This document shows, piece after piece, positions 1-8,918 of a stretch of DNA of 9,522 nt. The notes under the pieces were generated by a model. The model did no database searches. It was not told the DNA's origin and saw only the letters and a program-made list of their open reading frames with translations. How positions within the stretch are numbered: position 1 is the first letter of the stretch; every line of letters starts with the position of its first letter. This stretch comes from Candidatus Baldrarchaeum yapensis (GTDB lineage Archaea > Asgardarchaeota > Baldrarchaeia > Baldrarchaeales > Baldrarchaeaceae). The stretch is from assembly GCA_016840465.1 (NCBI GenBank), contig JAEOSH010000070.1, positions 1 through 9,522 of the forward strand. The letters are read 5' to 3'. Made by a program: the position numbers and the translations under genes.

Positions 1-611
1 CTCTCCTCCAATAGCGATAGTATTTTTTCGTAATCTTCTCTTCCCGCTATACATCCTTGGTTTCTCGCATGGATGTGTGCCCAATCTATCACAGGGACTG
101 TTCGTGGGATCTCCTCGCACATGTTGATGACTTCTTCTAAAGTTCCGAGTTGTGACGTTTTACCGGTGGTCTCCGGACCGAGTAGTACGTCTGTTATACC
201 TTCGCGCTCGGCATTTTCGAGGACTTCTTTAAGGGCATCTATGCACATTTTAAGCGCCTCTTCTGGATTCTTTTCACCGTAATACCCTGGGTGGAACACC
301 ACCAGACGCGCGCCCATCCAGTGTGCCGCCTTTAGCGCATCGAACAACCTTTTCTTTGACTGTTCATATGTTGTCTTTTTATCAGAAGATAAATTTATGT
401 AGTACGGAGCATGTAGTGACAGAAGGACGTCGCATTTTTTCGCATTTTCGCCTAATATTCTTGCTTTCTCTTCTTTTATCCTTACCCCTCTCACCGCCTG
501 GTATTCGTAAGCGTCTAGGCCCTTTTCTATGAGGAAGAAGGGAACTTCCTCAGTTGGTCCTTTATATCCAATGGGGTTTCCGGCGGTGCCGAACCTGGGC
601 CTAGAAGTCAT
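1..611 (-). CDS. nfo: Endonuclease IV-like AP endonuclease (5' part, truncated by window edge)
   Basis: My own translation of the minus strand from ATG at 611 is open to the window edge (203 residues visible; family about 280). It looks like a TIM-barrel, zinc-dependent AP endonuclease of the endonuclease IV (Nfo) type, which incises DNA 5' of abasic sites in base excision repair. Seen: HAPYYINL with H67, VVFHPGYY with H107, GPETTGK with E147, and VIDWAHIHAR with D176, H179 and H181. The spacing of these residues resembles the first zinc ligands of E. coli Nfo. The C-terminal third lies outside the window. The start is supported by GAGGG ending 7 nt upstream; an in-frame ATG two codons earlier would sit directly on that motif. 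It begins 10 nt after the stop of the upstream CPBP gene on the same strand, so the two are probably co-transcribed. Archaeal paralogues of the fold can be sugar isomerases, but the HAPY and GPETTGK motifs favour the nuclease. Confidence 0.85.
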   Translation of the reverse strand, partial: MTSRPRFGTAGNPIGYKGPTEEVPFFLIEKGLDAYEYQAVRGVRIKEEKARILGENAKKCDVLLSLHAPYYINLSSDKKTTYEQSKKRLFDALKAAHWMGARLVVFHPGYYGEKNPEEALKMCIDALKEVLENAEREGITDVLLGPETTGKTSQLGTLEEVINMCEEIPRTVPVIDWAHIHARNQGCIAGREDYEKILSLLEE

Positions 612-621
612 ACTCATACCC

Positions 622-1562: not shown

Positions 1563-3056
1563 ATGCTATTGAGGGTCACCAATGGCTTCGATGACTTATT
1601 ATGTGCAAAGACGAATTTAGAGATTTTCATTTGCTTAATGTGTGGAAGTATTCTCCGTAGCGGAGATGTTGATGTCAAGAAGAAAATGTACTTCTTATGC
1701 AAGAATTGTAATTCGAAATACGAGCGTTTGGGCGATCTTCCCGCGTGTAAGAGGTGTGGCTCCTCCCGTCTCCTTCTTCTCACAAGATATATAAAAACCT
1801 GCAAGTTTTGTGGATCGGAAAAAATACTTCCGTTATCTCAACTTAAGGCCCTCGTGTTGAAGCGAGCACGGCAGGTAATTGCGGTTGCTAGAGAGGTATT
1901 GAACTCGGTATCATCTCTTGTGCGAAGGTTTGAGAAAATAAAAGGAATTGCGTTGGAGGCGCGGTCTGCTGGTTTTCATCACTTCCCGATAATAGAATTG
2001 AGTTTAAAGAAATTTTCGGATAGATTACGCGATATAAAGTTGCTAATATCTCAGAAACTCCATAGGATACTTAACGACATGCTTGCGTGTGTGGAGTTTT
2101 TGGGGGGGAGTAATGGGGAGAAAATGGTGCTCGCGATGGAAAAGTCGAAAAGTCTAATCGATGAGATCGAGAATATCAAGAACGAGATAAGTAATGTTAA
2201 GGATAAACTGATGGGGGAACTTTTCGAGATTTCGATACCAATATACACGCTATACTATAACAGTCGTCTTTTTAGCAGGTATGGAAGGTTTATCCGTTTG
2301 CAAAACCATGAAAAACCGATATTTGTCCTTGATGGGATTCTAACCACGCGCTCTGACGGCAGAAAGAGTGTCTGTATGGTCATACTGACTAACATGAGGA
2401 TAATTGCACTTCAGATAGATAAGTACTATAAGGTGCCGAGGATATTTTGCGAGTATGAACTTATGTCGATCAAGGGAATGAGAGAGATGGGGGTGCTGAG
2501 AAGGATCCTTCTCCTGAAGTTCAGTAACGGGAGTGTGAAATTTCAGTCATCACCCGAAATTTTGAAATTGTTGCGTGAGTATATGGAAATTGCGCTCAAT
2601 TACGAAAATTATTCGATTAAAGAACCGTATAAGGAAGTATTTGACAAGATCACGGTATCTATCGAAGATTTGGACAAGATGATTGTCGAATTTGAAGAGA
2701 AGTTGAGAAATGCGCAGAAAGTGGGCACTAAGGAATCGAAAACAAAACACGATCGAATGGATACTAGCCGCGCAAAAACGAACCTAGTAAGAGAAGTTAA
2801 TGGGCGGAAGTCCTATCTGGAAATGCGGAAGAAGGAGTTAATATCACTACTGGAAGAACTGGAGCGAAAGTTCAAAGAGGGAATAATTTCTGTGGAGGAC
2901 TATTTCAGATACTATCGTACATGGATGGGGGAACTCTACTCCATAAATGCGCAACTTGGCGAATCGGACAAAACGTCGGAAGATAGTATGCATGGAAACT
3001 TAAATATTGTTTCTGAGAACAAGAAAGTGGGTAGTAATGAAGCAGACGACAAGTGA
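1563..3056 (+). CDS. Double zinc-ribbon, coiled-coil, GRAM/PH/GLUE-like protein with C-terminal hairpin; candidate ESCRT accessory subunit
   Basis: 497 aa from ATG 1563; an in-frame TTG at 1515 would give 513 aa and the residue numbers used here. Seen in order: zinc ribbon 1 (C40-x2-C43, C62-x2-C65), zinc ribbon 2 (C78-x2-C81, C96-x2-C99), long helical/coiled-coil stretch (about 110-235), a beta-rich segment (about 255-365) containing VLDGIL and MVILTNMRIIAL typical of GRAM/PH/GLUE folds, more helices (380-400), a charged linker, and a C-terminal helical hairpin (about 432-482) with LEELERKFKEGIISVEDYFRYY. That hairpin resembles the ones in Vps23 and Vps28 of this locus. Eukaryotic Vps36 combines a GLUE (PH-like) domain with zinc fingers, so a membrane/ubiquitin-binding adaptor for ESCRT is a reasonable inference, but no Vps36-type winged helices are seen. 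No strong SD precedes the start. The last 20 nt overlap the next gene. Alternative: an unrelated zinc-ribbon/bacterial-PH protein. Confidence 0.8.
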   Translation: MLLRVTNGFDDLLCAKTNLEIFICLMCGSILRSGDVDVKKKMYFLCKNCNSKYERLGDLPACKRCGSSRLLLLTRYIKTCKFCGSEKILPLSQLKALVLKRARQVIAVAREVLNSVSSLVRRFEKIKGIALEARSAGFHHFPIIELSLKKFSDRLRDIKLLISQKLHRILNDMLACVEFLGGSNGEKMVLAMEKSKSLIDEIENIKNEISNVKDKLMGELFEISIPIYTLYYNSRLFSRYGRFIRLQNHEKPIFVLDGILTTRSDGRKSVCMVILTNMRIIALQIDKYYKVPRIFCEYELMSIKGMREMGVLRRILLLKFSNGSVKFQSSPEILKLLREYMEIALNYENYSIKEPYKEVFDKITVSIEDLDKMIVEFEEKLRNAQKVGTKESKTKHDRMDTSRAKTNLVREVNGRKSYLEMRKKELISLLEELERKFKEGIISVEDYFRYYRTWMGELYSINAQLGESDKTSEDSMHGNLNIVSENKKVGSNEADDK

Positions 3057-3297
3057 GATAAAGGAGATTTTTAACTCAATAGAGCAGTCACTTATCGAGG
3101 GCTGGAATTTTCTCTTAACAGTAGGAACATATGCGGCTCTTTTTACAATGGGAATAGGCGCAATACTCTGGTTTTCCGGATTTGATACTGTAAAGGGTAA
3201 GAGAATGTTGCTCGGCGGGGTAATTTTATGCGCGGTAGTTCGCATCCTTGCAACAATTTCGCCAAGAGAACTGATCCAGGCAGTTTTAGGAAAGTAG
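3037..3297 (+). CDS. Small two-helix membrane protein of unknown function
   Basis: 86 aa from ATG 3037; an in-frame TTG at 3007 would add 10 residues. An amphipathic N-terminal helix (about 5-22) is followed by a transmembrane segment (about 23-46), a short basic loop with TVKGKR (51-56) and a second transmembrane segment (about 57-75). The hydrophobic-loop-hydrophobic plan with a basic loop and glycine-rich helices resembles TrbC/VirB2-type pilins and the small membrane subunits of archaeal DNA-import systems, but there is no specific motif, so this is only a topological resemblance. It overlaps the 3' end of the zinc-ribbon/PH-like gene by 20 nt, which suggests translational coupling. It meets the Vps25 gene tail to tail with a 13-nt gap. 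A membrane anchor working with the upstream protein is another possibility. Confidence 0.7.
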   Translation: MKQTTSEIKEIFNSIEQSLIEGWNFLLTVGTYAALFTMGIGAILWFSGFDTVKGKRMLLGGVILCAVVRILATISPRELIQAVLGK

Positions 3298-3310
3298 CAG
3301 AATACGAATA

Positions 3311-3934
3311 CTAAGGCACATGTATTTGTATAACAGACTTCTTCTTAATCCATCTAGCCTTACCCCTCTTGACAAGTATCTCGAACAACGTTAATACTTC
3401 GTCAAGCGGCATCTTCCTTAGTTCCTCGGGGCCCTCGGAGATAATAGTAAGTGGCGTCATCTCCAGCATGCCGTTCCTGATAGCATAATCGTATAACTCG
3501 TCAGCAAACTCCTCTAGGCTCTTCCAGAAAATTCTGATAGAAGTCTCACCGCGCCAGCGCGCGACACCGCTCTCCACCAAATACGCGAATATTTCCTTCA
3601 GATCCTCGCCACCTAACTTCGAAAACGGATACACCTTGGAGATCTTAGATATCGACAGCACATGCTCAAAGTGCGCCGCTGCCCACTTTACTAATAGATC
3701 TCCCCAGCTTTTGAGCCACGATTTGAGGTACATCTCTTGCTTTGGCCTAATGTACATCCACGGATACTCAACCCACTCTGGTAGTGCAAACTCGGTGCCT
3801 CTCTCCTCATGGATCCTTTCCGAAACTTTAACTCTTTGCACTTCGGCAACTTTAATATCAAGTTTACTCTCTTCATCTATCTCTTCTGTTTCTTCCTTTT
3901 TCTTCCCGCGAACCTTTTCTCTCTCGATATTCAT
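3311..3934 (-). CDS. vps25: ESCRT-II subunit Vps25-like
   Basis: 207 aa from ATG 3934. Residues about 1-50 are a highly charged, probably disordered extension. The rest fits Vps25, two tandem winged helices. Seen: VEYPWMY (55-61), comparable to the conserved PWQY near the Vps25 N-terminus, then KSWLKSWGDLLVKW (71-84), matching the eukaryotic segment with QLxxWxxLVLxF. GVARWRGETSIRIFWKSLEEF (123-143) matches the end of winged helix 1 and the linker to 2, and PLDEVLTLFEILVKRGKARWI (176-196) matches winged helix 2. In eukaryotes Vps25 is present twice in ESCRT-II and recruits the ESCRT-III subunit Vps20. The start is chosen because GAGG (3946-3943) lies 8 nt upstream and overlaps the Vps4 stop; in-frame ATG 3976 and TTG 3985 would instead overlap Vps4 by 32-41 nt. 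It follows Vps4 in one operon. Confidence 0.87.
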   Translation of the reverse strand: MNIEREKVRGKKKEETEEIDEESKLDIKVAEVQRVKVSERIHEERGTEFALPEWVEYPWMYIRPKQEMYLKSWLKSWGDLLVKWAAAHFEHVLSISKISKVYPFSKLGGEDLKEIFAYLVESGVARWRGETSIRIFWKSLEEFADELYDYAIRNGMLEMTPLTIISEGPEELRKMPLDEVLTLFEILVKRGKARWIKKKSVIQIHVP

Positions 3935-3942
3935 CCCCCAAA

Positions 3943-3946
3943 CCTC
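3943..3946 (-). promoter_or_regulatory. Ribosome binding site of vps25 overlapping the vps4 stop
   Basis: GAGG on the minus strand, 8 nt before the ATG at 3934 and overlapping the TGA of vps4 (3947-3945). It supports the shorter Vps25 start and suggests coupled translation of the pair. Confidence 0.5.
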
Positions 3947-5150
3947 ATGCAGAATATGCTCTCGCCCAATCTTCATATTTGGCAATTTCTTCCTTCGATA
4001 TCGATGGCTTTATTCTCTTAAGTGCCTCTAGAAAATCATCCATCGTAATGGGACGAATTTTCTCTGTCTTCAAAAGAAGTCCCTGCTCGTCGAGTTCCCT
4101 AATAGGGATCATCGCAGCCTCCCTGCATACTAAGGCAATATCCGCACCACTATACCCATCGGTTAATTCTGCAAGTTTGTCAAAATCAACTGAAGGATCG
4201 AGATCTAGACCACGTGTGTGAATCTTAAATATCTGAACCCTGGCATACTTATCGGGAGGCGGCACGTATATCCTACGCTCAAACCTCCTTCTCATTGCGG
4301 GATCTATCTCCCAAGGCCTGTTCGTTGCACCTATGACCACTATTCTTTCATCGGACTCCGACTTCAACCCATCCATCTCCAATAAAAACTGGGTCTTCAA
4401 CCTACGCTCCCCACCTATCTCGTCCTCCCTCCTCACGCTCGCAATAGAGTCTACCTCATCGATGAATATTATTGCCGGTTGCCTCTCCCTCGCTAAGGTG
4501 AACAACGTCTTAACAAGTTTTTCAGACTCCCCTAACCACTTAGACACGAGAGTTGCAGCATCCACGTTGAAAAATGTAGCATTGCACTCGGCGGCTACAG
4601 CCTTTGCCAGTAATGTCTTTCCACAACCGGGTGGGCCAAAAAGTAGTATTCCCTTCCACGGCCTCCTCGCGCCCTTGAATAGATCGGGACGTAGCATCGG
4701 AATTATTATCGCCTCCCTCAGAATGCCCTTCGCCTCTTCGAGATCTGCAATGTCATTAAAGGAAATCAACGGGCGCTCAGTTACTATTGCGGATTCTATG
4801 ATCTCAGAAAGCTGTTTCAAATCTTCTGGCAGTTCACTTGCCTTCTTTTCGGGTACTGGCATCCTTCTGGATACGTACCTCCTGAGTTCCTTGCAACGCT
4901 CTATATACTCTTGCGCGCGCTGATAATAGAGCGCCCTCAACTTGCGATTTTCTGTCAACTTTGCAAGTTGAAGTAACGTTTCCGCGGCCTTGAGGTAATA
5001 CTTGATCGACGCCTCATAATCTCCTTTCCGGTCGAGTTTTATTGCCATCTTCGCAAAATAAGACGCATAGTTTAGTAACTGGGCGCCCATATCTCTTCTC
5101 TCCGAGAAAATTTGCAATATACCCGTGTTTAATTCCGCAATAGTAAACAT
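3945..5150 (-). CDS. vps4: Vps4-like AAA ATPase with MIT domain
   Basis: 401 aa. An N-terminal MIT three-helix domain (about 25-92; AKMAIKLDRKGDYEASIKYY) is followed by a linker (93-125) and one AAA+ module. Walker A is GPPGCGKT (172-179), pore loop KWLGE (204-208), Walker B IIFIDE (227-232), sensor 1 GATN (274-277), arginine fingers in MRRRF (286-290), and IYVPPPD follows. A C-terminal helix KEEIAKYEDWARAY matches the Vps4 end. There is no room for the beta-domain insertion of eukaryotic Vps4, as in archaeal CdvC. It should disassemble ESCRT-III polymers by threading subunits, docking on their C-terminal MIM helices. Start: ATG 5150 has no SD but has an AAAAATACTA box 20-29 nt upstream, fitting a leaderless transcript. 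ATG 5090, with GGAG 7 nt upstream, gives a 381-aa protein with the MIT domain intact and is a real alternative. It is divergent from the ESCRT-III operon and upstream of vps25. Confidence 0.95.
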   Translation of the reverse strand: MFTIAELNTGILQIFSERRDMGAQLLNYASYFAKMAIKLDRKGDYEASIKYYLKAAETLLQLAKLTENRKLRALYYQRAQEYIERCKELRRYVSRRMPVPEKKASELPEDLKQLSEIIESAIVTERPLISFNDIADLEEAKGILREAIIIPMLRPDLFKGARRPWKGILLFGPPGCGKTLLAKAVAAECNATFFNVDAATLVSKWLGESEKLVKTLFTLARERQPAIIFIDEVDSIASVRREDEIGGERRLKTQFLLEMDGLKSESDERIVVIGATNRPWEIDPAMRRRFERRIYVPPPDKYARVQIFKIHTRGLDLDPSVDFDKLAELTDGYSGADIALVCREAAMIPIRELDEQGLLLKTEKIRPITMDDFLEALKRIKPSISKEEIAKYEDWARAYSA

Positions 5151-5156
5151 ATAAAG
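5149..5156 (+). promoter_or_regulatory. TATA box for the ESCRT-III/I/II operon
   Basis: ATATAAAG lies 39-46 nt before the GTG start at 5195. A transcript starting about 25 nt downstream (near 5178) would include the strong SD motif. It overlaps the first codon of vps4 on the other strand. Confidence 0.5.
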
Positions 5157-5169
5157 ATTTTACTTGTGT

Positions 5170-5179
5170 TAGTATTTTT
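5170..5179 (-). promoter_or_regulatory. TATA-like box for vps4-vps25
   Basis: The minus strand reads AAAAATACTA, centred about 25 nt before the ATG at 5150. This is the spacing expected for a leaderless archaeal transcript beginning at that ATG. The box lies back to back with the promoter of the opposite operon within 44 bp. Confidence 0.4.
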
Positions 5180-5180
5180 C

Positions 5181-5189
5181 GGAAGGAGG
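5181..5189 (+). promoter_or_regulatory. Strong ribosome binding site of the first ESCRT-III gene
   Basis: GGAAGGAGG, the best SD match in the window, sits 5 nt before GTG 5195 and 8 nt before GTG 5198. The in-frame ATG at 5216 is 26 nt away. It therefore decides for a GTG start. Confidence 0.7.
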
Positions 5190-5194
5190 CATCC

Positions 5195-5818
5195 GTGGTG
5201 CCCCTCTCAGATGCCATGAGGAAGTTCATAAGATGGCTTAAAGGCGTACCTAGTACTAGGAACCTATCGACACAATTGCACATTTTGTCAAAGAAACTCG
5301 AATTTCAAAGAAGAAAATTCGAGAGTGAGGCATACAAGTGCAGAGAAAAGGCCAAAAAGTACCGTATGGAGGGGGATTACGAAGCTGCAAAAACCTACGC
5401 AGAATACTACCTCAGGTACAAAAAATGGGCTCTCGGACTGGATATGTACCGACTACGCATGGATATGATCCTCGCAAAACTGCAACAGAGCCAGGCATTG
5501 GCAGATCTCGCCCAGATAATGCAAGATCTCAAGTACATACTGATGGGAGTAAAGGACTTGGTCAGTGCAACTGGCATCGCCGAAACGATTAGCGACGTTG
5601 AGAGAATAATGGGAGAGATAGATGTCGCGGCGGAAGTGGCAGGGAATAGCATAGAGAGAATCAGCGTGGATACAAAGGTGTCCCCCGATGAGGTGAATAA
5701 AGTACTTGCTGAAATAGACCAGGAGTTGGGTATAGAGACCGGAATGGCTCTCCCAGAGCCCGGAAAGAAAATAGAAGAATTAGAAAAGGAGATAAAGAAA
5801 CTTAAGGAAGAATTTTAA
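5195..5818 (+). CDS. ESCRT-III protein, Vps2/24/46-like class
   Basis: 207 aa, almost entirely helical. An N-terminal basic region (MRKFIRWLKG, 8-17) would face membrane. The long helical hairpin follows (about 22-100), with REKAKKYRMEGDYEAAKTYA at its turn, which matches the Snf7-fold pattern of A-x-x-Y-A-x-x-x-x-R-x-K seen in Vps2, Vps24 and Vps46. Shorter helices follow (100-155; IMGEIDVAAE), then a linker and a C-terminal helix (193-206) whose L-x2-E-I-x2-L-K pattern resembles a MIM1 motif for the Vps4 MIT domain. There is no winged helix as in CdvB. It would co-polymerise with the downstream ESCRT-III protein to constrict membrane. First gene of the plus-strand operon, 13 nt before the next. 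The split into Vps2/24/46 versus Vps20/32/60 class is by overall resemblance and is less certain than family membership. Confidence 0.88.
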   Translation: MVPLSDAMRKFIRWLKGVPSTRNLSTQLHILSKKLEFQRRKFESEAYKCREKAKKYRMEGDYEAAKTYAEYYLRYKKWALGLDMYRLRMDMILAKLQQSQALADLAQIMQDLKYILMGVKDLVSATGIAETISDVERIMGEIDVAAEVAGNSIERISVDTKVSPDEVNKVLAEIDQELGIETGMALPEPGKKIEELEKEIKKLKEEF

Positions 5819-5831
5819 GGAGTTGATGTAA

Positions 5832-6470
5832 ATGTCGTTCCTTAAGAGATTAAAGGGAGCCCTTACGGGAGGATCAAAAAAGAACATTGACCGCACGATC
5901 GCCGAACTAATGTCCGTTATCAACGTTTTGCAACTCCGAACCAAAGAACTGGAAAGACGAGCAATGGCGAGCAGAGAAAAGGCAAAGGAGTTCATAAGGG
6001 CAGGAAATAAGGTGCTTGCTCGTCATCACCTAAAGCGTTATGTGCGCTACTCAAAATATCTGGAACGGTACTATAAGTTTGCCGCAAACTTAGAGGATAC
6101 GATCATGGAGATAAAAACAGCCCAAGATGTTGTGCAACTCGAAAGAGCACTAGAAAAGGCATCTAACATCCTAGAAAAGACGAAAACATTTGTATCTCGG
6201 GAAAAGGCATTTGAGACCATGGGTAGGGTTCAAGGACTCTTTGAAGAAATAGAAACTGCCTCCGAAATCCTCAGTGGAGACATAGAAATACCAGGAGAGG
6301 AAGAGGAGGTTGAAAAGGAGTACGAAAAATTGCTAACCGAGATCACGCTCGAGGCAGAAGCTGAACTCCCACGGGTGGCAACCGCGGAAAAAGAAGTTGC
6401 CGTAGAAGATGAACTAAAAAAGGAAGTCGAGAAACTAAAGAAGGAGGAGGAAGAGAAAGAGAAGGAATGA
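5832..6470 (+). CDS. ESCRT-III protein, Vps20/32/60 (Snf7)-like class
   Basis: 212 aa. A basic amphipathic N-terminus (MSFLKRLKG) is followed by the Snf7 helical hairpin (about 17-95), containing KVLARHHLKRYVRYSKYLER (60-79), like the A-x-x-x-L-K-R-K-K-x-x-E segment of Snf7/CHMP4. Helices follow to about 147 (METMGRVQGLF-type segment at 130-137), then a strongly acidic tail. The last helix (192-203) reads E-x2-L-x2-E-V-x2-L-K, a MIM1-like pattern that differs from the consensus at the central arginine. The extreme C-terminus is a run of Glu/Lys. In eukaryotes this class is nucleated by ESCRT-II through Vps20 and forms the main filament. Start ATG 5832 has GGAG 9 nt upstream. Lies between the first ESCRT-III gene and vps23 in one operon (13- and 14-nt gaps). 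Confidence 0.9.
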   Translation: MSFLKRLKGALTGGSKKNIDRTIAELMSVINVLQLRTKELERRAMASREKAKEFIRAGNKVLARHHLKRYVRYSKYLERYYKFAANLEDTIMEIKTAQDVVQLERALEKASNILEKTKTFVSREKAFETMGRVQGLFEEIETASEILSGDIEIPGEEEEVEKEYEKLLTEITLEAEAELPRVATAEKEVAVEDELKKEVEKLKKEEEEKEKE

Positions 6471-6484: not shown

Positions 6485-7255
6485 TTGTATTCGGGTATAG
6501 ACTTCGATCAGATTCTAGCACGCGAAGCCCAACTTATGATAAACAGGGCACCCGGATTCGAACCAGTACATGGAGATCTTAGAAGATGGAGAGGAAAAGT
6601 GAAAACTGGGAGAAACCAATGGGTGGAAGTCGAGATAATCGTCCCAGACGGATATCCCCATGTGCCACCGGAAGTTAAGGTATTAACTCCTATCAAGCAT
6701 CCCTACGTCGATAGTCAGGGAAAACTTCATCTTCCAATTCTTGAGTCATGGCGTCCTCATTACCACTTGCACCACGTCGTCAACACAATAAAGGGCCTCT
6801 TTGTGAGGTACCCACCCGAGGAGGTCACGCCACCTAAACCTCCCCTCCACAAAGAACCATCTAAGGATATTGCAACTCTACAAAAGAAGATACAAATACT
6901 GGAAGAGCAAATAAAGGCGCTACAAAGGGAACTGCATGAAAAAGATGTTGAAATCGTACGTCTAAAAAATATGATACACTACAACATTCCTGATAGGACA
7001 ATGGCAACATCATCAAGAGATATACTTGATGAAGCCCTGCCAGAAGACCCGGAGGAAAGGTTAAGAATAGAATTGGAGTGCGAACTGCAAGCAATAGAGG
7101 ATATGTTGCATATCCTCGAAGAAAAATTCGAAGCGGGCGAAATACCCCCAGAGGACTACCATAAACTCTACACAAACTACCTGAAGCGAATGTATAAGGT
7201 CAAAAAACTTCTCGAAGGTATGAAAAAGGGTGAAGGTAGTGAAAAGAGCAGATAA
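6485..7255 (+). CDS. vps23: ESCRT-I subunit Vps23/TSG101-like (UEV + coiled coil + steadiness box)
   Basis: 256 aa, TTG start. Residues about 5-110 form an E2-like UEV domain: the YPHVPPEVKV strand/PP turn (57-66), then HPYVDSQGKLHLPILESW (72-89), very close to the TSG101 pattern. The E2 catalytic cysteine position is occupied by H82 and there is no other cysteine in the domain, so it should bind rather than conjugate ubiquitin-like partners or peptide motifs. A proline-rich linker (110-121) leads to a coiled coil (about 126-163) and then a steadiness-box hairpin (about 188-246) with LEEKFEAGEIPPEDYHKLY. In eukaryotes the steadiness box packs with Vps28 and Vps37 in the ESCRT-I headpiece. Its 3' end overlaps vps28 by 26 nt (17 if the second GTG is used), consistent with coupled translation of direct partners. 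Confidence 0.93.
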   Translation: MYSGIDFDQILAREAQLMINRAPGFEPVHGDLRRWRGKVKTGRNQWVEVEIIVPDGYPHVPPEVKVLTPIKHPYVDSQGKLHLPILESWRPHYHLHHVVNTIKGLFVRYPPEEVTPPKPPLHKEPSKDIATLQKKIQILEEQIKALQRELHEKDVEIVRLKNMIHYNIPDRTMATSSRDILDEALPEDPEERLRIELECELQAIEDMLHILEEKFEAGEIPPEDYHKLYTNYLKRMYKVKKLLEGMKKGEGSEKSR

Positions 7256-7847
7256 GACGTTAGAACTGAAAGCTGAACTTTTTGCATGTATTGCCACATT
7301 AGACAACCTCATGCGAAACTTCCAAGACGGAAAGATAGACCCCGCAACCTATAGAAGGCAGTTCAAATCGCTACTCCACGACATATTCAAGTATAAGCAG
7401 ATGCTTGAAGAAATGAACATAAACGTCGAAGACTTTATACGTGAGGAAAGACTGGACGAGAAATATCCTCTTGCAATGAGGAAATTCGCTAAGGAAGGAG
7501 AAACGGAAGCACCAGTGCTACAAACTACAACAACATCAGCAAAACTCGCAGTGAAGGCCTCCGATATAGTCGCCAACCTTATAACAATAATTGATTGTAC
7601 AAAACTCCACGATCTCGTCACAATTAAAATGATAGCACCACTTCTCGAGGAAACGATAACTCTACTTGTAAACTTCCCAGGTCTGCCTCCAAATTACTGG
7701 GTTGTCGTAGATATGAGAAACTGGCTAAATAAATTACTATCAATGGATCCGGAGGCAAAATTGGATGCTAAAACTTCTAAAGAACTGGAATTTCAGGCGG
7801 TGAGATGGTTAAACGACTTTAGGCTCCGGCTACGTGAAATGCAATAA
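7230..7847 (+). CDS. vps28: ESCRT-I subunit Vps28-like
   Basis: 205 aa from GTG 7230; GTG 7239 (202 aa) has GGTGA 5 nt upstream and may be the true start. Residues 12-62 form the N-terminal hairpin (LDNLMRNFQDGKIDPATYRR) that in ESCRT-I packs with the Vps23 steadiness box. Then ERLDEKYPLAMRKFAKEG (73-90) closely matches the conserved Vps28 segment written RLDCPLAMERI in human VPS28. After a Thr-rich linker, residues 108-203 match the C-terminal four-helix bundle: IVANLITIIDCTKL, then NFPGLPPNYW, VVDMRNWLNKLLSM and a final FQAVRWLNDF helix. In eukaryotes that bundle binds ESCRT-II (Vps36) and ESCRT-III (Vps20). The gene overlaps vps23 and is followed by a small paralogue-like gene. Confidence 0.92.
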   Translation: MKVVKRADKTLELKAELFACIATLDNLMRNFQDGKIDPATYRRQFKSLLHDIFKYKQMLEEMNINVEDFIREERLDEKYPLAMRKFAKEGETEAPVLQTTTTSAKLAVKASDIVANLITIIDCTKLHDLVTIKMIAPLLEETITLLVNFPGLPPNYWVVVDMRNWLNKLLSMDPEAKLDAKTSKELEFQAVRWLNDFRLRLREMQ

Positions 7848-7868: not shown

Positions 7869-8165
7869 ATGAGTAGAGCAACTGGCATAATAGAACTCAG
7901 AGAGCGTCTATTAAAGTTAATAGATATGGTGGAACTAAGATTAGATGCTGAGTATATATTGGAGGAATTAGATGTGATAAGATATCTTATGAAGGCATAT
8001 TTGGGTCCTAATCATCAGGTGACAAAGGAAGTAGAGGAATGGTATAATACTCTCATGCAGAAATATCGCAATAATATGGGGGAGAGGATATCGGACGATG
8101 AAAGAAAAATTCTCTCTCTTAAGGCAAGCTCTTGGTATAATATCGTAAAATCGATCTTATTTTAG
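7869..8165 (+). CDS. Stand-alone Vps28 C-terminal-domain-like four-helix protein
   Basis: 98 aa, all helical, with no signal peptide or membrane span. I read it as a free-standing version of the Vps28 C-terminal bundle. LLKLIDMVELRLDAEYILEE (14-33) aligns with LITIIDCTKL of the upstream Vps28 and with the human ITVMDKLRLEIRAMDEI region. YLGPNH (44-49) corresponds to the GLPPNY loop, VEEWYNTLM (55-63) to MRNWLNKLL, and the final ISDDERKILSLKASSWYNIV to the LDDSQVRQMLFDLESAYNAF helix of human VPS28. Identity is low, so the call rests on pattern and position. ATG 7869 has GAGG 9 nt upstream; it starts 21 nt after vps28 and ends 12 nt before vps22, so it is part of the operon. The gene looks AT-richer and uses more TTA/GAT/ATA codons than its neighbours. 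If the reading is right, it may compete with or duplicate the ESCRT-I to ESCRT-II contact. Confidence 0.8.
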   Translation: MSRATGIIELRERLLKLIDMVELRLDAEYILEELDVIRYLMKAYLGPNHQVTKEVEEWYNTLMQKYRNNMGERISDDERKILSLKASSWYNIVKSILF

Positions 8166-8177: not shown

Positions 8178-8918
8178 TTGGGGCTTCATGAAATTGAGAA
8201 GAAATTGAAGATGAACGCAGCTTTTAAGCAGAAAAGATTAGAACTCATGCTCACAGAGTTGGAAATGCTGATGCAGGGAATGAGGGACCTCTCCCAAAAA
8301 CTTGAAGAGTTCGAAGAAAAATACGGAGACATAATATCTCTTCATCCGGAATATAGGAAAAAGATAGAGGATCTAAAAAGAGAACTGGGAATATCGCCTG
8401 TTGTAGAGAAAGTGGAAAAGCCGAGCTTTTGGGAGAGATTGCGCGGGAAAGGACCATTTTATAATACACTTGCGATGAAAATTCTGAGAATCGCACTTCC
8501 TCTTGCAAAGAAAACAGGCGGGATACTCACACTGGCTGAACTTCTAACGACATTAACAAAGAAATTCCCAACAATGCAAATAAAAACAACAGATGTATTA
8601 AAGGCCCTAAACGTGTTAAAAGAAGAAGGACTGATCGCAGACGTGAGAAAACTCAAAAGTGGCGTCGTATTAATTGAGGTGCTCCCGGTAGAATTATCAA
8701 ACGATCAGCACGAGGTGTTATCGCTCGCGTCCGATAAGGGATGGGTAACCCTTGATGAAGTGCTGTTGAAAACGGGTTGGACTCAAGAACGTGCACGGAG
8801 GGTGCTTAAAGAACTTGAAAACTCCGGTATTGCTGTCTTTGACCCCAATTATGCAAAGGGAGGAAGATGGTTCTTCCCGGGCCTTAAGAGTGCATCTAAG
8901 GCTAGTTCTTCCCCTTAA
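8178..8918 (+). CDS. vps22: ESCRT-II subunit Vps22/EAP30 (SNF8)-like
   Basis: 246 aa, TTG start. The N-terminal helical hairpin (1-75) includes LEEFEEKYGDIISLHPEYRKK (42-62) and GISPV, matching the human SNF8 segment with F-x-x-K-H-x-x-x-I-x-x-N-P-E-F-R and IGVDP. SFWERLRGKGPFYNTLAM (83-100) matches the FW-x-E-x-L-G-x-G-D-F-Y-Y block. Winged helix 1 spans about 98-170 (KKTGGILTLAELLTTL) and winged helix 2 about 171-237 (VELSNDQHEVLSLASDKGWV, then GWTQERARRVLKELENSGIA, ending in GGRWFFPGL). A short Ser/Lys tail follows. In eukaryotes Vps22 pairs with Vps36 and two Vps25 copies to form Y-shaped ESCRT-II. Here it closes the plus-strand operon; its partner Vps25 lies in the divergent operon. The last 17 nt overlap the PDCD5 gene tail to tail. 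Confidence 0.93.
   Translation: MGLHEIEKKLKMNAAFKQKRLELMLTELEMLMQGMRDLSQKLEEFEEKYGDIISLHPEYRKKIEDLKRELGISPVVEKVEKPSFWERLRGKGPFYNTLAMKILRIALPLAKKTGGILTLAELLTTLTKKFPTMQIKTTDVLKALNVLKEEGLIADVRKLKSGVVLIEVLPVELSNDQHEVLSLASDKGWVTLDEVLLKTGWTQERARRVLKELENSGIAVFDPNYAKGGRWFFPGLKSASKASSSP

Follow-up and report, generated by a model that had tools for sequence, protein, structure and literature searches.

A Znr_PH_CC_SB family protein encoded in the ESCRT gene cluster of Candidatus Baldrarchaeum yapensis, a candidate membrane adaptor of ESCRT-I

Gene content of the window

The DNA analysed here (hereafter referred to as the window) is an entire contig of 9.5 kb from the 96%-complete genome of Candidatus Baldrarchaeum yapensis, an archaeal relative of the ancestors of eukaryotes. 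The gene for a putative adaptor protein lies in its membrane-cutting (ESCRT) gene cluster, and the remainder of the window is mostly occupied by the other genes of this Asgard cluster, as listed below.

1563-3056 (+): adaptor gene, with zinc modules, stalk, PH domain and steadiness box (SB), Asgard family Znr_PH_CC_SB; 497 amino acids, ATG at 1563, stop codon ending at 3056
3311-3985 (-): Vps25 (ESCRT-II); Pfam ESCRT-II 5.8e-11
3945-5150 (-): Vps4 ATPase; MIT, AAA and Vps4_C domains
5195-5818 (+): ESCRT-III subunit (Snf7); Pfam Snf7 3.6e-10
5832-6470 (+): ESCRT-III subunit (Snf7); Pfam Snf7 2.3e-19
6485-7255 (+): Vps23; UEV plus steadiness box
7230-7847 (+): Vps28; steadiness box and C-terminal domain, Pfam VPS28 2.3e-16
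7869-8165 (+): stand-alone paralogue of the Vps28 C-terminal domain, 98 amino acids; hhalign 94.9%, 4.4e-8 against the Vps28 C-terminus
8178-8918 (+): Vps22 (EAP30); the only EAP30 protein of the genome over the cut-off

The adaptor reading frame and its set of domains, as observed in an earlier note made from the sequence of the window, are confirmed. An alternative TTG start at 1515 adds 16 amino acids without evident homology.

Conservation of the gene neighbourhood was examined in 36 loci carrying a family ORF. A Snf7 gene is in reach in 31 of these loci, a few of which come from the same genus, so that not all represent independent events; in the other five, the gene is cut by the contig end (two) or belongs to a divergent relative (three). 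The Snf7 gene is the tail-to-tail, convergent neighbour of the adaptor gene in 30 of the 31 and is located less than 300 bp away in 29, while several loci present full clusters combining the adaptor with Vps23-Vps28-Vps22-Vps25-Vps4-Snf7. The linkage with ESCRT genes, to which the earlier note had drawn attention, is thus strongly conserved. The sole exception among the 31 loci is the window itself, in which the Vps25-Vps4-Snf7 block (3311-6470) is inverted relative to the adaptor gene; this may reflect a real rearrangement or an assembly error.

Family assignment and distribution

The adaptor belongs to an already described family, Znr_PH_CC_SB (also Znr_CC_PH_SB; cog.011556), the match being made to the published description. 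The architecture was described by Makarova et al. 2024 (PMC10936438), where cog.011556 is regarded as 'a likely ESCRT-I component' that probably goes back to the Asgard ancestor, with a PH domain presumed to act at the membrane as in Vps36. The protein had been recognised independently in the earlier note as a candidate adaptor, but it is not a new one; both its architecture and its assignment to ESCRT-I were already in print (PMC10936438), and the present additions are refinements, namely the subclass of the PH domain, the putatively B-box-like first module, the phylum-wide linkage and the specificity of the hairpin. A search of the open-access literature found no experimental study under the Znr_PH_CC_SB name. 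The window's member resembles the published family in its N-terminal zinc region, coiled coil, PH domain, C-terminal steadiness box and ESCRT neighbourhood; it differs in having two intact zinc sites, a reduced form of the three zinc ribbons published.

Using a profile built from 14 members (E<=1e-22), family members were detected in 106 of the 148 sampled Asgard genomes, as counted from the listing of matches. This distribution, together with the ESCRT synteny, indicates that the adaptor ORF is not a chance one. Protein searches of 59 related genomes gave a match in 41, some of them through the Vps23 hairpin only, and the nearest relatives in the family search were records labelled Baldrarchaeota, plus one labelled Odinarchaeota. 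A close-relative scan of genome contigs with the protein gave no match, and an alignment of 14 diverse members contained no stretch conserved enough for scanning. The family is absent, by the 14-member profile, from a relative assembled as a single contig of 1.42 Mb (G006) in which the ESCRT cluster is present, and by profile from another ESCRT-bearing genome (G012). Asgard ESCRT systems therefore do not all depend on it. At three loci (L049, 8941-10443, -; L055, 9637-11136, +; L069, 10048-11313, -), the relatives are divergent, their hairpins are degenerate and ESCRT genes are missing from the neighbourhood; they are possibly paralogues that have taken up another role.

Domain organisation

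Taken alone, the adaptor protein has only sub-threshold Pfam matches, such as DZR_2 at 0.001, below the cut-off, and its relatives were therefore used for the domain analysis. In the family alignment, the order is zinc modules, helical stalk, PH domain, variable linker and hairpin. Structural modelling was performed with AlphaFold2 on nine sequences (mean pLDDT 79, PH domain mostly near 90). The features of the window's member are given below.

1632-1709 (+): first zinc module, residues 24-49; B-box-like in relatives, by alignment and zf-B_box/ANCHR-like B-box matches
1746-1811 (+): zinc ribbon, residues 62-83; two CxxC pairs, invariant in alignment A3
1833-2291 (+): helical stalk, residues 91-243; three long helices in the model (91-135, 142-179, 185-243)
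2316-2597 (+): PH domain of the PH-GRAM/GLUE/bPH type, residues 252-345; seven strands and a C-terminal helix in the model
2724-2795 (+): flexible linker, residues 388-411; low confidence in the model
2796-2981 (+): steadiness box hairpin, residues 412-473; helices 402-438 and 444-477 in the model

The zinc region carries CxxC pairs at residues 24/27, 46/49, 62/65 and 80/83, which make up two complete zinc sites, in agreement with the number of zinc ribbons proposed earlier, although the first module looks B-box-like in the relatives. Most relatives have six CxxC pairs, or three possible sites, in the alignment; the window's member retains four of these pairs (2, 4, 5 and 6), the other two (1 and 3) being degenerate. 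The first module of the relatives follows the pattern CxxC-x8-CxxC-x4-CxxC and matches B-box profiles weakly, zf-B_box being matched in 7/8 members (best 3.5e-4), with the window's member below the cut-off. Fold matches of the module are weak and mixed, B-box and zinc-ribbon folds both scoring Z 4-5, and no confident one was found. In the cross-brace of a B-box, pairs 1 and 3 hold one zinc and pairs 2 and 4 another, and the joint loss of pairs 1 and 3 is therefore the pattern of one lost site. From this pattern, seen in one lineage, we infer that the family may possess a B-box-like first module and one ribbon, a revision of the 'three zinc ribbons'.

The zinc modules are followed by the three-helix stalk, which corresponds to the coiled coil of the earlier note. 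For the isolated PH domain, the best Foldseek match is the GLUE domain of yeast Vps36 (E 2.4e-5, TM by target 0.62). In VIA-align, several top matches are tied, with PH-GRAM of MTMR2 (Z 13.6), EAP45 GLUE (2hth_B, 13.0), BBS5 (12.9) and Vps36 GLUE (2cay_B, 11.7) among them, so that PH-GRAM and EAP45/Vps36 GLUE are about equal. As PH-GRAM, GLUE, BBS5 and others fall within about 1 Z, the domain was not assigned to GLUE in particular; high-ranking RhoGEF DH-PH matches were set aside as helix-plus-PH alignments (rmsd mostly >13). Profile searches with 16 members matched bPH_3 in 13 (best 1.8e-7), GRAM in 10 (1.7e-5) and, among the relatives, the Pfam Vps36 GLUE profile in six (best 0.0016). Judged by sequence, the domain is nearest to the bacterial PH (bPH_3) and GRAM domains. 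The 'LTNMRI' pattern singled out in the earlier note is the conserved strand 'LFLTxKRLIFL' of the family's PH domain, the domain as such matching the bPH_3, GRAM and Vps36 GLUE profiles. The GRAM/PH/GLUE call made there thus holds at the level of the superfamily, in fold as well as in profiles, and the ESCRT-II GLUE domain is among the top structural matches, but the call does not extend to descent from GLUE specifically. The net charge of the domain is +8 in the window's member (residues 236-350) and +5 in the family median, and such a basic PH domain fits the putative binding of acidic lipids.

Many relatives have a longer, proline-rich linker. P[ST]AP motifs, which bind UEV domains, were considered in these linkers and dropped, with none in the 35 aligned linkers; the looser P[ST]xP was observed nine times against 5.1 expected. 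PPSAPTS is present by eye in the protein of locus L064, outside the linker segment used for the P[ST]AP count.

Searched against the PDB, the full-length family profile matches the yeast Vps23 core (2p22_A) at 7.3e-8, and the hairpin-only profile matches yeast Vps23 (2f66_A) at 1.2e-6 and TSG101 at 1.1e-3. By hhalign, the hairpin aligns with Asgard Vps23 (98.2%, 2.6e-13) and Vps28 (94%, 2.3e-8), as against at most 2.1% for the controls (Vps22, Vps25 and both Snf7 families). Among 4,067 ORFs from ESCRT loci and loci adjoining them, the hairpin HMM detects, outside the family, Vps23 and Vps28 only. Because of these profile, control and HMM results, a generic coiled coil is rejected; what the earlier note had termed an ESCRT-I-type hairpin is a true steadiness box, by sequence homologous to the hairpin of the ESCRT-I headpiece. 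The homology with Vps23/TSG101 covers the C-terminal box, preceded by helices in both proteins; the adaptor, however, lacks the UEV and has zinc modules and a stalk in its N-terminal part instead, and the true Vps23 is separately encoded in the window. As a side observation, the ESCRT locus of Jordarchaeia/Sigynarchaeota encodes a large ATPase-like protein (L035, 13334-16399, -; L033, 7808-10543, -) whose C-terminal hairpin is faintly steadiness-box-like (hhalign 16-19%).

Relationship to Vps36 and Vps37

Profile searches of the 96%-complete genome gave no match over the cut-off for Vps37/Mod_r, none for GLUE at E<=1, and no EAP30 protein over the cut-off besides Vps22 that could represent Vps36. 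The absence of recognisable Vps36 and Vps37, remarked upon in the earlier note, is upheld at the level of the genome. An Asgard ESCRT-I/II reconstruction has likewise been made without Vps36 and Vps37, the bridge between ESCRT-I and ESCRT-II of Odinarchaeota being left undetermined (Hatano et al. 2022, PMC9192718). The adaptor itself has no EAP30, Mod_r or UEV/E2 match in Pfam and, lacking the EAP30 winged helices and a detectable Mod_r domain, is neither Vps36 nor Vps37. Like yeast Vps36, it combines a PH-superfamily fold with zinc modules, but its zinc modules are N-terminal and not inserted in the PH domain, whose sequence is nearer to bPH_3/GRAM. The hairpin resembles those of Vps23 and Vps28, whereas no Vps37 chain occurs among the PDB matches of its profile (kinship may still exist). 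This counts against the headpiece position of Vps37, which we infer the adaptor could take. The steadiness boxes encoded in the window's cluster, those of Vps23, Vps28 and the adaptor, are three, equal in number to the hairpins of the eukaryotic headpiece. Hatano et al. 2022 (PMC9192718) found the Vps23 of Odinarchaeota to form a dimer that takes up a single Vps28, and two-hybrid data indicate that a steadiness-box protein of the ESCRT neighbourhood of Loki-/Thorarchaeota, which may not be Znr_PH_CC_SB, may interact with Vps28 (PMC9192718).

Proposed functional role

The adaptor is considered fairly likely to be an ESCRT-I-associated membrane protein, with its hairpin docked, its PH domain on the membrane and its zinc region binding a partner. 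The steadiness box, being related to the hairpins of Vps23 and Vps28, would become the third hairpin of the ESCRT-I headpiece, docking where Vps37 sits in eukaryotes or a second Vps23 in Odinarchaeota; the basic PH domain would hold the complex on the membrane through presumed lipid binding, and the partner of the zinc modules would most likely be ubiquitin or else a subunit of ESCRT. The observations underlying this proposal are the domain make-up, the hairpin homology, the PH fold, the ESCRT-III linkage and the lack of a recognisable Vps36 or Vps37. The PH fold, the ESCRT linkage and the hairpin homology likewise sustain part of the interpretation of the earlier note, whereas the merging of Vps36 and Vps37 roles envisaged in it would be an analogy only. 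Two of the findings that would have refuted that interpretation, an unrelated fold of the middle domain and a lack of conserved ESCRT linkage, are contradicted by these results. Against a role in ESCRT-I, the immediate neighbour is an ESCRT-III gene and not the Vps23-Vps28 operon, the family is missing in some ESCRT genomes, and the window's member has lost half of the first zinc module. The family, spread across the phylum and encoded in the core cluster, combines a steadiness box with a PH domain and zinc modules; it is the obvious candidate for a membrane-binding headpiece subunit and bears on the question of how membrane recognition entered the ESCRT system before eukaryotes.

The main rival explanation, an unlikely one that retains some force, is that of a CdvA-like anchor for ESCRT-III, in which the PH domain would be the membrane-bound part and the C-terminal coiled region would recruit Snf7 polymers directly, outside ESCRT-I. 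The Snf7 gene is indeed the closest and most constant neighbour, convergent in 30/31 loci, but convergent neighbours are not co-transcribed. The logic of a membrane anchor joined to a coiled coil is shared with CdvA of TACK archaea, and the similarity of the steadiness box to CdvA was noted by Makarova et al. 2024 (PMC10936438). Weak C-terminal matches were also obtained here (Pfam CdvA, 0.008 in one member; PDB CdvA 9s9i_A, E 0.12); the same region, however, scores far better against Vps23, and the adaptor has a PH domain where CdvA has a membrane-side domain of its own.

It is rather improbable that the protein is a peripheral, ESCRT-0-like adaptor whose steadiness box touches ESCRT-I only transiently, the choice of cargo or membrane site being left to the zinc and PH domains. 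Such a transient role has been proposed for many further SB fusions of Asgard genomes (PMC10936438), and the absence of the family from some ESCRT-bearing families would agree with an accessory role, but its wide presence and fixed place in the core cluster look like those of a core subunit. An evolutionary scenario in which the family is both the ancestral third headpiece subunit of ESCRT-I and the source of the PH domain of eukaryotic Vps36 GLUE, its functions having split into Vps37 and Vps36, is regarded as decidedly doubtful. Finally, coiled coils and PH folds (small beta barrels) are common and the window's member alone has only sub-threshold Pfam matches, but generic matches in a protein unrelated to ESCRT are very improbable in view of the negative helical controls, the specificity of the hairpin HMM and, above all, the phylum-wide ESCRT synteny.

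Other reading frames of the window

The 98-aa paralogue of the Vps28 C-terminal domain, situated between Vps28 and Vps22, is conserved in several lineages, and separate copies of this domain are mentioned in the Asgard survey (PMC10936438). An ORF of 86 amino acids with hydrophobic stretches (3037-3297, +), for which neither a Pfam match nor a homologue in the compared loci was found, lies between the adaptor gene and the inverted block; its first 20 bp overlap with the 3' end of the adaptor gene, with which it is possibly co-translated. Upstream, a membrane protein with an N-terminal zinc ribbon (622-1449, -) resembles the CPBP type (CAAX-protease-like) by the look of its sequence. An Endonuclease-IV-like gene, identified by eye, occurs upstream of the adaptor gene both in the window (3-617, -) and in locus L032 (6392-7294, +), and the flank is therefore partly conserved too.
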